Shown here: positions 231-25,762 of the stretch, in pieces
Numbering within the stretch: position 1 is the first letter of the stretch
How the letters are laid out: every line of letters starts with the position of its first letter
Assembly: GCA_001798715.1 (NCBI GenBank)
Contig: MGSF01000076.1
Span: 1-42,388 of the forward strand
Source: Deltaproteobacteria bacterium RIFCSPLOWO2_02_FULL_50_16
Lineage (GTDB): Bacteria; UBA10199; 2-02-FULL-50-16
Direction: 5' to 3'
Length of the DNA: 42,388 bases
Position numbers and translations under genes: made by a program
The notes under the pieces: model-generated
Databases searched by the model: none
Seen by the model: only the letters and a program-made list of their open reading frames with translations
What the model was told of the DNA's origin: nothing

Positions 231-397
231 CTTCATCTCGTCCCAAATCTATTTTTCTGCACCGTTTCGCTCCCGCGAAACGGTGCGGCGACGTACAGTC
301 TCCGCAAACTTAACTCTTATCTTGGTACCAACTCGCTCCCTTCGCGCCTCTGGCGCTTCAGGGTCTCAGCGCTCTGCGCTGGGATCGTTCGTTGGTA

Positions 398-455
398 CAG
401 CACTTTTCTACACTTTGCGGCGACGTACAGTCTCCGCCAAGTGTGAAAAGTGCTG
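398..455 (-). repeat. Hairpin abutting the 3' end of tRNA-Thr(GGT)
   Basis: CAGCACTTTTC (398 onward) pairs with GAAAAGTGCTG (to 455), continuing through CACTT/AAGTG to a GC-rich apex containing GGCGACGTACAGTC. It ends at the base next to the discriminator position of the tRNA. It is one of four equivalent hairpins, one behind each tRNA of the operon. Confidence 0.7.
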
Positions 456-528
456 AGCCGACACGCGGAATCGAACCGCGGACCTTCTCCTTACCATGGA
501 GATGCTCTGCCAACTGAGCTATGTCGGC
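456..528 (-). tRNA. tRNA-Thr, anticodon GGT
   Basis: The minus strand folds as a complete cloverleaf of 73 bases: acceptor GCCGACA/TGTCGGC, D arm GCTC...GAGC, anticodon stem TCTCC/GGAGA with loop ATGGTAA (anticodon GGT, reading ACC), and T arm GCGG-TTCGATT-CCGC. The discriminator is T and CCA is not encoded, so the CCA end must be added. It is the last tRNA of the operon and reads toward the probable tuf gene. Confidence 0.96.
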
Positions 529-591
529 GCAAATTAATCTCCTTGCCCCATCTCGTTTCACGAGACGAAACCAGCTCTCGTACGATTTGCG
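528..591 (-). repeat. Hairpin at the 5' end of tRNA-Thr(GGT)
   Basis: CGCAAAT (528-534) pairs with ATTTGCG (585-591), and the interior holds TCTCGT/ACGAGA. The outermost pair uses the first base of the mature tRNA. This matches the layout at the other tRNAs, where the base of the leader helix also takes in the first tRNA nucleotides. Confidence 0.5.
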
Positions 592-642
592 TGCGTTCTC
601 CGAAGGAGAACCCTATAACACCCACTTCCTTACACTGTCCCG
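584..642 (-). repeat. 59-bp direct repeat in tRNA spacer, copy 1
   Basis: Positions 584-642 recur almost unchanged at 835-893 (offset 251). Both include a GTTCTCC-GAA-GGAGAAC hairpin followed by an identical tail ending TACACTGTCCCG. Both copies lie between tRNA-Gly and tRNA-Thr(GGT). Confidence 0.75.
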
Positions 643-708
643 TGAAGCCGTTTGGTTTCGACGAGTTCAACGAGGAAGAAACCATTACGGATTCACGCAC
701 CGTTTCGC
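637..708 (-). repeat. 72-bp direct repeat in tRNA spacers, copy 1
   Basis: Positions 637-708 recur at 1654-1725 (offset 1017) with only a few changes. The unit forms a stem in which CGTGAA, CCGT and GGTTT on one side pair with TTCACG, ACGG and AAACC on the other. One copy is in the Gly-Thr spacer and the other in the Thr-Tyr spacer. Confidence 0.75.
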
Positions 709-834
709 CCATCGCGCCTCGTATCGCATCTCTGATGCTTCAAATGCACTTGAGCACTGCGAAAGTGCTGGCGCTTCGACGTAGTCGTCCCAGCACTCTG
801 TGCTGGGGTTGTTCAACGGTGCCAGCTTCCGTAA

Positions 835-893
835 GATTTGCGTGCGTTCTCCGAAGGAGAACCCTATAATACCCACTTCCTTACACTGTCCCG
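835..893 (-). repeat. 59-bp direct repeat in tRNA spacer, copy 2
   Basis: This is the second copy of the unit at 584-642. It is followed by a different short hairpin (TCCCGC-AAA-GCGGGA) and by another copy of the GCCGGCGTAAAGCCG apex module, which shows the modules are combined in different orders. Confidence 0.75.
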
Positions 894-963
894 CAAAGCG
901 GGACGCCGGCGTAAAGCCGTCGCAAATTGATCTCCTCGCCCCGTCTCGTGAAACGAGACGGGA

Positions 964-1019
964 CCAGCTCTCGTACGATTTGCGAGGACGCAGGATCCTC
1001 GCAAATCAACGGAAGCTGG
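964..1019 (-). repeat. Hairpin abutting the 3' end of tRNA-Gly(TCC)
   Basis: CCAGCT (964-969) pairs with AGCTGG (1014-1019), continuing through CGTACGATTTGCGAGGA against TCCTCGCAAATC with small internal mismatches. The helix ends two bases from the tRNA. Its 3'-side lower arm (AACGGAAGCTGG) is the same sequence used behind tRNA-Thr(TGT), but the opposite arm differs. Confidence 0.7.
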
Positions 1020-1020
1020 G

Positions 1021-1093
1021 AGCGGGAGACGAGGTTCGAACTCGCGACCCTCAGCTTGGAAGGCTGATGCTCTACCAACTGAGCTACTCCCGC
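1021..1093 (-). tRNA. tRNA-Gly, anticodon TCC
   Basis: The 73-base minus-strand cloverleaf has acceptor GCGGGAG/CTCCCGC, anticodon stem TCAGC/GCTGA with loop CTTCCAA (anticodon TCC, reading GGA), and T arm CGAG-TTCGAAC-CTCG. The discriminator is T, as is usual for bacterial tRNA-Gly, and CCA is not encoded. Both ends are flanked by long hairpins. Confidence 0.96.
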
Positions 1094-1196
1094 AAATCCG
1101 TTCGGTTTCTGCAAGCCTAGCGTCCCGAAGTCAGAGACTTCAGGACCTGATGGGCCAGAGGCCCTGATCCGAGCAAGAAACCGTTACGGATTTGCG
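1091..1196 (-). repeat. Long hairpin at the 5' end of tRNA-Gly
   Basis: CGCAAATCCG (1091-1100) pairs with CGGATTTGCG (1187-1196), extended by CGGTTTCTGC against GCAAGAAACCG. Smaller stems sit inside (GAAGTC/GACTTC and GGGCC/GGCCC). The first three bases of the tRNA, GCG, form the bottom of this helix, so leader and acceptor stem would compete for them. Confidence 0.65.
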
Positions 1197-1274
1197 TCCC
1201 ACATGCTTCATAATTACAAGCATGTGGGACGCGTGGCCTTCTTCGCGGCACCGATTCGCTCCCGCGAAACGGGG

Positions 1275-1330
1275 CCTTATTCCGTACGCCTTGCGCCGAC
1301 GTAAAGTCGTCGCAAGGCTACGGAATAAGG
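1275..1330 (-). repeat. Hairpin abutting the 3' end of tRNA-Tyr
   Basis: CCTTATTCCGTA (from 1275) pairs with TACGGAATAAGG (to 1330), topped by GCCTTGCG...CGCAAGGC and the apex CGACGTAAAGTCG. It is almost perfectly paired and ends next to the tRNA discriminator base. The apex differs from the one behind tRNA-Thr(TGT) by a paired change: CGGC-GTAAA-GCCG there, CGAC-GTAAA-GTCG here. Confidence 0.75.
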
Positions 1331-1413
1331 TGGAGGGAGAAGGATTCGAACCTTCGAAGGCATACGCCGGCAGATTTACAGTCTGCTCCCTTTGGCCTCT
1401 CGGGCATCCCTCC
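1331..1413 (-). tRNA. tRNA-Tyr, anticodon GTA
   Basis: The minus-strand sequence is a class II tRNA with a long variable arm. It has acceptor GGAGGGA paired with TCCCTCC, anticodon stem GCAGA/TCTGC with loop CTGTAAA (anticodon GTA), a variable arm before the T arm, and T arm GAAGG-TTCGAAT-CCTTC. Discriminator A, CCA not encoded. Confidence 0.96.
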
Positions 1414-1470
1414 AGCAGTTCGTTAGTTTTGCGGCGATCTTGCATCGACGCAAAACTTATGAACTGCTGG
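1412..1470 (-). repeat. Hairpin at the 5' end of tRNA-Tyr
   Basis: CCAGCAGTTC (1412-1421) pairs with GAACTGCTGG (1461-1470), extended by AGTTTTGCG against CGCAAAACT. The bottom two pairs use the first two G residues of the tRNA. Confidence 0.7.
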
Positions 1471-1527
1471 TCCTCAGCCGAAGGCTGAGGGCCCGGAAGT
1501 CAAACGAATCACTCCCCACCAGATCTT

Positions 1528-1637
1528 ACTAACAGTCTCAAAATTGTATAGACATTTGGGGACTGTCAGTATTACAGGACCGGCTGTTAGCCCTATCGGG
1601 CTGTCCATATTATTTCGGTCCTGTTAATAGTTAACTT
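1528..1637 (-). repeat. Structured repeat, copy B (downstream of tRNA-Thr TGT)
   Basis: This is the second copy of the element at 121-230, with the same two stem-loops. The ACAGGACCG/CGGTCCTGT stem is unchanged between copies, and the inner loop differs by one base. A run of A/T bases (1637-1653) sits on its promoter-proximal side. Confidence 0.75.
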
Positions 1638-1653
1638 TTAAAAAAACTTTTTT

Positions 1654-1725
1654 GTCCCGTGAAGCCGTTTGGTTTCGACGAGTTCAACGAAGAAAAAACC
1701 ATTACGGATTCACGCACCGTTTCGC
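1654..1725 (-). repeat. 72-bp direct repeat in tRNA spacers, copy 2
   Basis: This is the second copy of 637-708. It is directly followed by a compact hairpin (CACCGTTTCGC/GCGAAACGGTG, about 1716-1740), variants of which also occur near 260-285 and 1246-1272. Confidence 0.75.
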
Positions 1726-1740
1726 TTCCGCGAAACGGTG

Positions 1741-1796
1741 CCAGCTTCCGTAAGATTTGCGCCGGCGTAAAGCCGTCGCAAATCAACGGAAGCTGG
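1741..1796 (-). repeat. Hairpin abutting the 3' end of tRNA-Thr(TGT)
   Basis: CCAGCTTCCGT (1741-1751) pairs with ACGGAAGCTGG (1786-1796), and GATTTGCG with CGCAAATC, capped by CCGGCGTAAAGCCG. About 23-25 pairs with one small internal loop. It ends one base from the tRNA 3' end. There is no U-tract after it and the operon continues, so it is unlikely to be a terminator. Confidence 0.75.
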
Positions 1797-1797
1797 G

Positions 1798-1870
1798 AGC
1801 CGACGCCCGGAATCGAACCGGGGACCTACTGATTACAAATCAGTCGCTCTACCTACTGAGCTACATCGGC
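1798..1870 (-). tRNA. tRNA-Thr, anticodon TGT
   Basis: The 73-base minus-strand cloverleaf has acceptor GCCGATG/CGTCGGC (one T-G pair), D arm GCTC...GAGC, anticodon stem ACTGA/TCAGT with loop TTTGTAA (anticodon TGT, reading ACA), and T arm CCCGG-TTCGATT-CCGGG. The discriminator is T and CCA is absent. It is the first gene of the tRNA operon, about 165 bases after the predicted transcription start. Confidence 0.96.
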
Positions 1871-2041
1871 GTGCATCATTTTCCAAATTACTGCACCGCC
1901 TCCTGAAAAAAAATAAACTCTTCCCTCGCGACCGGATCGTTAAAAAAACAAATTGCATCACAGCGACCTAGTCCATTGGAATTATTACAGTCTTCGAGCT
2001 TTGGTAAACCCTTTAATTTTGAAAATCGAAAAAGCCGTGGA

Positions 2042-25680: not shown

Positions 25681-25762
25681 TGGCGGGCGTCTGTTGAGCT
25701 CCTGTTGCCTTGCGTAACAGGAGCGATTACAGGCGCCAGTCCTAAATACGAAGTCTTTAGGG
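25681..25762 (-). promoter_or_regulatory. Hairpin cluster upstream of aroG
   Basis: TGGCG (25681-25685) and CGCCA (25734-25738) enclose a perfect nine-pair hairpin GCTCCTGTT/AACAGGAGC (25698-25724). Next to it CCTAAA/TTTAGG forms another stem. The cluster lies 80-160 bases upstream of the preferred aroG start on its leader side. It could be an attenuator-like leader or simply the boundary with the divergent gene at 25788. No aromatic-rich leader peptide was seen. Confidence 0.4.

Follow-up and report, generated by a model that had tools for sequence, protein, structure and literature searches.

The trailers of bacterial tRNAs are commonly regarded as short and without distinctive features. 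In the stretch of DNA analyzed here (the window: all 42,388 nucleotides of contig C76, MGSF01000076.1, of the 1.73 Mb, 92% complete genome of the uncultured Deltaproteobacteria bacterium RIFCSPLOWO2_02_FULL_50_16), each of four tRNA genes has a two-tier hairpin, termed HP1, directly 3′ of it, and a second hairpin (HP2) is also present after three of the four. Judged by its sequence, HP1 resembles a tRNA-processing signal of an undescribed kind, one that would also spread from one tRNA end to another. With HP2, it makes up a covarying module at the exact ends of tRNA and transfer-messenger RNA (tmRNA) genes in two bacterial families; the module lacks an Rfam entry, and an orientation rule ties it to the acceptor stem. 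Such a module would be a testable case of either a mobile palindrome turned RNA-processing signal or a tRNA-end-specific integrating element, and would mislead the annotation of terminators and repeats in this phylum.

Several described systems share features with HP1. The R1.1 signal of phage T7, which is a substrate of RNase III, measures 60 nt and contains an asymmetric internal loop (PMC6121014); like HP1, such RNase III signals of the T7 early RNA are ∼60 nt long, have a lower and an upper stem around this loop, and lie between cotranscribed genes (PMC6121014). Unlike R1.1, HP1 is always found at tRNA-like ends, has a different sequence and a smaller internal loop, and its cleavage is putative. 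In Staphylococcus aureus, RNase III starts tRNA maturation from rRNA precursors (PMC3386247), and the rRNA leader:trailer stems cut by this enzyme resemble HP1 in placing double-stranded RNA beside the end of a stable RNA, although HP1 is a local, one-sided hairpin without pairing across the RNA. Repetitive extragenic palindromic (REP) elements and REPINs, which are mobilized by RAYT proteins, are likewise short two-tier palindromes, present in many copies per genome and often paired. However, REP elements are spread through noncoding regions (PMC3390384), whereas HP1 is tied to tRNA ends, and there is no RAYT gene flanked by HP1. The tRNA-linked repeats (TLRs) of Escherichia coli carry 18–19 bp of a tRNA 3′ end (PMC8144298) and follow tRNA genes, comparable to the displaced 3′ ends of 16–19 nt described below for Arg(CCG), Met, and a Leu(TAA) of a related genome; HP1 itself holds no tRNA 3′ end, and the TLR-like inserts found here are separate from it and longer. 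Finally, GC-rich palindromes flank tRNA genes in Neurospora mitochondria, as cited, along with mitochondrial GC clusters, in PMC4478555. As described there, these palindromes are like HP1 in their sporadic occurrence at tRNA genes, and unlike it in being mitochondrial; the likeness is one of description only.

Hairpins flanking the tRNA genes of the window

The four tRNA genes all lie on the minus strand, as do their HP1 hairpins, and the foot of each HP1 stands 0–1 base past the discriminator base. For tRNA-Thr(TGT) (1796..1870), HP1 occupies 1741..1796 (−39.5 kcal/mol, offset 1) and scores 76.0 bits at 1742–1795 with R1, a covariance model built from seven HP1 copies at tRNA 3′ ends that include this one. 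The corresponding hairpins are at 1275..1330 for tRNA-Tyr(GTA) (1329..1413; R1 73.9 bits at 1276–1329; −39.3 kcal/mol), at 964..1019 for tRNA-Gly(TCC) (1019..1093; R1 66.3 bits at 965–1018; −35.8 kcal/mol), and at 398..455 for tRNA-Thr(GGT) (455..528; R1 66.1 bits at 400–453; −35.2 kcal/mol). An earlier inspection by a model, hereafter the sequence-only reading, had placed these four hairpins correctly, and they fold at −39.5 to −35.2 kcal/mol; the common apex that it described is found in the Thr(TGT), Tyr, and Thr(GGT) copies, but not in that of Gly. An apex fragment of HP1 is also present at 284..306 on the minus strand (partial R1 match, 24.2 bits, E 0.027).

HP2 follows the HP1 of Thr(TGT) at 1714..1741 (CACCGTTTCGC..GCGAAACGGTG, −18.9 kcal/mol), that of Tyr at 1248..1275 (from the fold), and that of Gly at 940..962 (CCCGTCTCG..CGAGACGGG, −16.8 kcal/mol), each on the minus strand; the first two belong to repeat D9. 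In 29 HP2 examples with a GT-type foot, chosen by eye and with feet trimmed by hand, the first and fourth pairs are G-C and C-G, respectively, in 28 each; the second pair is U-G in 25, and covariation between A-U and C-G is seen in the third. This conserved wobble is limited to a subset of HP2, because those of the window carry another foot (CACCG..CGGTG).

The tRNA 5′ ends are more varied, and the claim that all four are preceded by a hairpin stands in part. The Tyr hairpin (1412..1470) is strong (−34.0 kcal/mol); it is an inverted copy of the HP1 family on the plus strand, with R1 scores of 43.1 bits on that strand and 25.6 on the minus strand at 1414–1468, and its foot includes the first tRNA bases. 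A moderate hairpin (528..591, minus strand; −20.5 kcal/mol; repeat D8) precedes Thr(GGT) and holds the 3′ half of a Gly-type HP1 (CGCAAATCGTACGAGAGCTGG). The Gly hairpin (1091..1196, minus strand), seen in the fold and the sequence, is composite, and its foot (GCAAATCC/GGATTTGC) includes G1 and C2 of the tRNA. The Thr(TGT) hairpin, at −10.3 kcal/mol, is at the chance level of shuffled flanks (median −10.2).

The minus-strand order is rlmB (SpoU methylase), tRNA-Thr(TGT), Tyr, Gly(TCC), and Thr(GGT), followed at the edge of the contig by a ribosome-binding site and a start codon. We take this order to equal that of the E. coli thrU-tyrU-glyT-thrT-tufB operon, with the downstream gene here read only as its ribosome-binding site and start codon. 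None of the four tRNA genes encodes CCA. The spacers are indeed unusually long, as had been claimed: they measure 235–490 bases, compared with 0–144 in five relatives with the same tRNA order.

Build, distribution, and orientation of HP1

In HP1, a lower stem of ∼8–11 bp and an upper stem are separated by a short internal loop, which is either TT/TTA or tandem GA/GA with a bulged A. Type 1, represented by models R1 and R3, combines the TT/TTA loop with an A bulged out of the 3′ strand and has TTTGCG/CGCAAA as its conserved core; type 2, represented by model R2 (CGGGAG..GCGACCAG), has a bulged A, two pairs, and the tandem GA/GA loop. The trailers of Phe, Ile, and Asp have the same build, but are matched by neither sequence model. 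With 22 pairs, HP1 has the stem of at least ∼20 bp with an internal loop that is seen in RNase III processing signals, and its folds also fit a short imperfect palindrome with an internal mismatch, as in REP elements. Short TTA-like repeats at the junction of the tiers were seen by eye only, and no U run follows HP1 in the tRNA trailers checked in the window and the genome. The first trailer bases (CA, CC, CT, or TA) are complemented by the distal HP1 strand. As a separate observation, CA follows the discriminator base in most tRNA genes of this genome and its relatives, though CCA is mostly not encoded.

The pairing is supported by compensatory changes. In the seven sequences of the R1 family, 95% of positions are paired and 16 of 22 pairs have changes on both sides, a level reached in 0 of 500 shuffles; such changes occur in 17 of 22 pairs in a 12-sequence set of the main HP1 family, in 9 of 15 pairs of the type 2 family (100% of cells paired), and in 12 of 22 pairs among nine HP1 copies (97% paired) from G019, a genome of the same class but another family. 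Shifting the HP1 pairing partners by 1 to 3 columns abolishes this signal. The strand is also marked: G-U pairs on the tRNA strand outnumber those on the antisense strand 37 to 7 (17 to 4 here, 20 to 3 in G019) with boundaries from the sense fold, and 25 to 11 (14 to 4 and 11 to 7, respectively) with boundaries from the antisense fold. This excess favors RNA over DNA as the form under selection, short of proof, and, like the location of every 3′ HP1 copy on the strand of its tRNA, may reflect transcription with the tRNA.

In this genome, we found 37 tRNA genes and read their flanks. Hairpins of the same build also occur at Asp, Phe, Ile, Val(TAC), Trp, two Met, Arg(CCT), Leu(TAA), Leu(CAG), Leu(GAG), and Lys; the tRNA-Ile copy lies between the 16S and 23S rRNA genes. 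A 3′ hairpin of at least 48 nt, with an energy of −24 or lower and a foot offset of at most 1, is present at 15 of 33 scorable tRNAs, in contrast to 4 of 100 in seven relatives and 3 of 66 shuffled flanks. In an intergenic sample of ∼394 kb (non-random, as it was chosen partly around tRNAs and repeats, and with genes called by hexamer score), 23 hairpins fold at −35 kcal/mol or lower, the majority being at tRNAs, vs. none in one shuffle.

Across the whole genome, R1 and R2 identify 19 sites at E < 0.01, of which seven for each model are its own training sequences, leaving an independent yield of five. All 19 lie at the end of a tRNA or tmRNA or at a displaced tRNA 3′ end copy, save for one, which is a tandem unit beside such a copy, and at this threshold neither model has a site away from tRNA-like ends. 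The R1 sites at tRNA 3′ ends are those of the four window tRNAs, Leu(TAA), Leu(CAG), and one Met; another (on C14) follows a displaced copy of the 3′ part of Leu(TAG), another (on C72) lies directly after tmRNA (tRNA-like end ..CCACCTCCAC), and inverted sites are found at the 5′ ends of Leu(TAA) and Tyr. The eight R2 sites are at Arg(CCT), the displaced 3′ end of Arg(CCG), Lys, Val, Leu(GAG), Arg(ACG), and, in two cases, at the start of C60, where one comes after the 3′ half of tRNA-Arg(ACG) and a tandem unit ∼75 bases further on makes up the second. A covariance-model search, as the sequence-only reading had proposed, yields matching hairpins elsewhere in the genome, with compensatory changes, at tRNA ends. 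At the gathering score, Rfam has no family for these hairpins, and only tRNA and rRNA match.

The orientation of the copies follows a rule. For all ten 3′ copies found with R3, the tRNA strand is the better or only strand, and three 5′ copies (two here and one in the genome G007) match better in inverted orientation with R1, which was trained on 3′ copies only (inverted vs. direct, 64.0 vs. 48.3 bits and 43.1 vs. 25.6 bits; 31.6 bits in G007). Hence, it is always the same HP1 foot that is turned toward the acceptor stem. In terms of DNA, the element would follow the acceptor 3′ strand sequence at either tRNA end; the rule is the best hint of mobility, and has no obvious reason on the RNA level.

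R1 and R3 were also run on 46 genomes of the class, which are all of the phylum in the database (with none other of the same family and one of the same order). As these models are sequence-bound, HP1 of another sequence can be missed in relatives; with this reservation, HP1 is patchy, occurring in 2 to 3 of the 46 genomes, with none in most other genomes of the class. In G019, these models match at tRNA-Leu(TAA), beyond an insert and a second 3′ end of this tRNA (a copy of 16 nt, ∼130 nt downstream), and R2 matches two exactly abutting tRNA 3′ ends and a weak third site with no tRNA near. Reading of the 45 tRNAs in G019 revealed HP1-HP2 trailers at Thr(CGT), Ala(GGC, TGC, and CGC), Leu(TAG, CAG, and TAA), Ser(GCT), two Met, Phe, Val(TAC and CAC), Ile, and Arg(ACG), with HP1 at the Ile and Ala tRNAs inside the 16S-23S rRNA spacer. 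Because the Ile copy is type 1-like here and type 2 in G019, HP1 type is independent of tRNA identity. In G007, the match is at the 5′ end of tRNA-Ser, in three tandem copies. A model match in G002 was rejected as HP1, as it is a long perfect palindrome with no tRNA near. The sequence-only reading had counted against itself relatives with short spacers and no matching hairpins elsewhere; relatives with short spacers do exist, but so do matching hairpins, both in this genome and in G019.

Phage sequences gave no HP1 match, and viral contigs gave none for the one exact pattern that was searched. Plasmid matches cover just the two tRNA genes of the query, and contigs of other lineages around rlmB (805 kb, 54 loci) gave nothing better than E 0.37. 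Separately, the genome of the same order (G001; L182, L187, L195, and L196) has 133 tRNA matches in dense arrays, perhaps on phage or contaminating contigs.

Possible roles: processing signal, mobile palindrome, or both

We tentatively favor, at somewhat less than an even chance, the interpretation that HP1, usually with HP2, is a transcribed element of tRNA trailers that serves as an RNase III-type processing signal and spreads between tRNA ends. A double-strand-specific RNase, most likely RNase III, would cut HP1 at its internal loop and so release each tRNA, still bearing a short trailer, from its long precursor; RNase Z or exonucleases would then take off this trailer before CCA addition. 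Within the genome, HP1 would spread between tRNA ends as a palindromic unit, its foot landing at the end of the acceptor stem, and this would explain both the related copies at unrelated tRNAs and the inverted 5′ copies. A processing signal fits the place, strand, pairing, and internal loop of HP1; which enzyme acts, where it cuts, and how the element spreads are inferred. Of the three ideas raised in the sequence-only reading, processing is the best fit, given the covarying two-tier stems, the internal loop, the excess of G-U over A-C on the tRNA strand, and the copies in the rRNA spacer and at tmRNA, with its enzymatic part remaining conjectural. Six other tRNAs, Leu(TAG), three Ala, Pro(CGG), and Arg(TCT), have a strong leader:trailer helix enclosing the tRNA. 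Such helices are present at 6 of 34 tRNAs here, compared with 7 of 101 in relatives and 7 of 790 in shuffles. HP1 adjoins none of these six tRNAs (probability by chance ∼0.009, calculated by hand), and the two arrangements look like an either/or.

Several points weigh against this interpretation. RNase E/G is present in this genome, and an ordinary processing route therefore probably exists. HP1 is not required, since many tRNAs here and nearly all relatives are without it. HP1 copies within one genome are paralogues rather than independent samples of covariation, and the G-U test in G019 is weak with antisense-fold boundaries (11 to 7, p 0.48). The inverted 5′ copies, moreover, are explained more easily on the DNA than on the RNA level. 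Loss of RNase E as the cause of the hairpins was considered and rejected, as RNase E/G occurs both here and in 28 of 30 genomes. In this genome, RNase E/G is in two pieces on two contigs (C15:13869 and C16:8377), owing to either an assembly break or a split gene.

Alternatively, HP1-HP2 may be a selfish, palindromic element, similar to REP elements or miniature inverted-repeat transposable elements, that targets the ends of acceptor stems, keeps its pairing because a recombinase reads the folded single-stranded DNA, and brings no benefit to the tRNA; we regard this as possible, though more doubtful. Related copies at unrelated tRNAs, inverted 5′ copies with the same foot toward the acceptor stem at both tRNA ends, types not tied to tRNA identity (such as the Ile copies of types 1 and 2), tandem units at C60 and in G007, and the patchy occurrence among the 46 genomes all agree with such an element. 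However, no transposase was found with HP1, and the sole Y1 transposase gene has its own, different terminal repeats; the sites are not scattered over intergenic regions in the manner of REP elements, as none lies off tRNA-like ends; and the G-U excess is on the tRNA strand. A further difficulty is that the distal strand matches the first trailer bases even though CA is part of the tRNA locus in relatives as well. The family of palindromic elements at tRNA ends that had been suggested earlier finds support in the related copies, the inverted copy at three 5′ ends, the displaced tRNA 3′ ends, and the patchiness, and it is compatible with a role in processing. A history that combines the two, in which a palindromic family recognizes the acceptor stem end on either strand, inserts, and is then kept as an RNA processing module across several families of the candidate phylum, seems rather unlikely as a whole.

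The remaining explanations fare worse. The idea of a guard or switch of tRNA folding, in which the hairpins would compete with the acceptor stem, draws on the leaders of Arg(ACG), Arg(CCT), and Arg(CCG), which form 16-bp stems covering most of the 5′ acceptor strand, and on the Tyr and Gly leaders, which occupy the first one to three tRNA bases. Such leaders belong to a minority of tRNAs, however, and HP1, with its first base past the discriminator, can stack on the acceptor stem instead of competing with it. As an account of HP1, which has its foot outside the tRNA, this suggestion of the sequence-only reading does not hold up, although it may fit the three Arg leaders; overall, we consider it improbable. 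It is more improbable still that HP1 is a transcription terminator without a U tract, as might be supposed from a strong hairpin directly after a gene in a genome where other tRNAs have a hairpin and a T run: HP1 lies between tRNAs of one operon, has no T run, and sits between 16S and 23S rRNA in both genomes, a position that excludes a terminator. Chance palindromes in a G+C-rich spacer have a negligible probability; dispersed palindromic repeats are common in this genome, but chance is contradicted by the specificity for tRNA ends, the covariation, and the recurrence in G019.

Displaced tRNA ends and other repeats

Inserts that end in a second copy of a tRNA 3′ end occur at Met (three copies), Arg(CCG), and Leu(TAA) of G019, among others. 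Because the old HP1 lies beyond the second copy at Arg(CCG) and at Leu(TAA) of G019, the insert came between the tRNA and its trailer. In a search for a copy of the tRNA's own 3′ end (at least 10 nt, within 150 nt downstream), none was found among 36 tRNAs. At L220 11660–12330, tRNA-Met is followed by partial 3′ end copies (12–19 nt), of which the first two each have a terminator, and by a repeated ∼150-nt unit, an arrangement that is TLR-like.

The three Arg leaders (L218 13602–13661 and 13864–13936, and L032 upstream of Arg(ACG)) have a common inner motif similar to AAGGAA..CCTTTATG. A RAYT origin of HP1 was rejected: the single Y1_Tnp gene, at C87:4027, has unrelated inverted repeats, and neither R1 nor R2 has a site there. 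At L225 1421–2460, the Y1 transposase gene with inverted repeats (AAAGGGGTCAG..TGACATTCGACATT) is followed downstream by a palindromic repeat with the ends AACCTCTAAAAACC.

Other structured sequences are also present in the window. An HP1-like two-tier hairpin (TTGA..GATTA) lies at 25686..25737 on the plus strand, with no tRNA near; it was identified by a descriptor search and its sequence, and is matched by neither R1 nor R2. Another two-tier hairpin (20–70; −33.6 kcal/mol) is immediately 5′ of the ribosome-binding site that serves the gene following the tRNA operon. At 119–230 and 1526–1637 there is a double palindrome of 112 nt (TTAACAGGACC..GGTCCTGTAATACTAACAGTCCC..GGGACTGTTAGTA), which has ∼20 dispersed copies in the genome, with no tie to tRNAs. 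Branched repeats with a GAAG/GGAG linker (CCCAGCGCAGAGCGCTGAGACCCTGAAGCGCC..), at 330–383 and 690–800, also have dispersed copies, and a similar module ends the tRNA 3′ inserts in G019.

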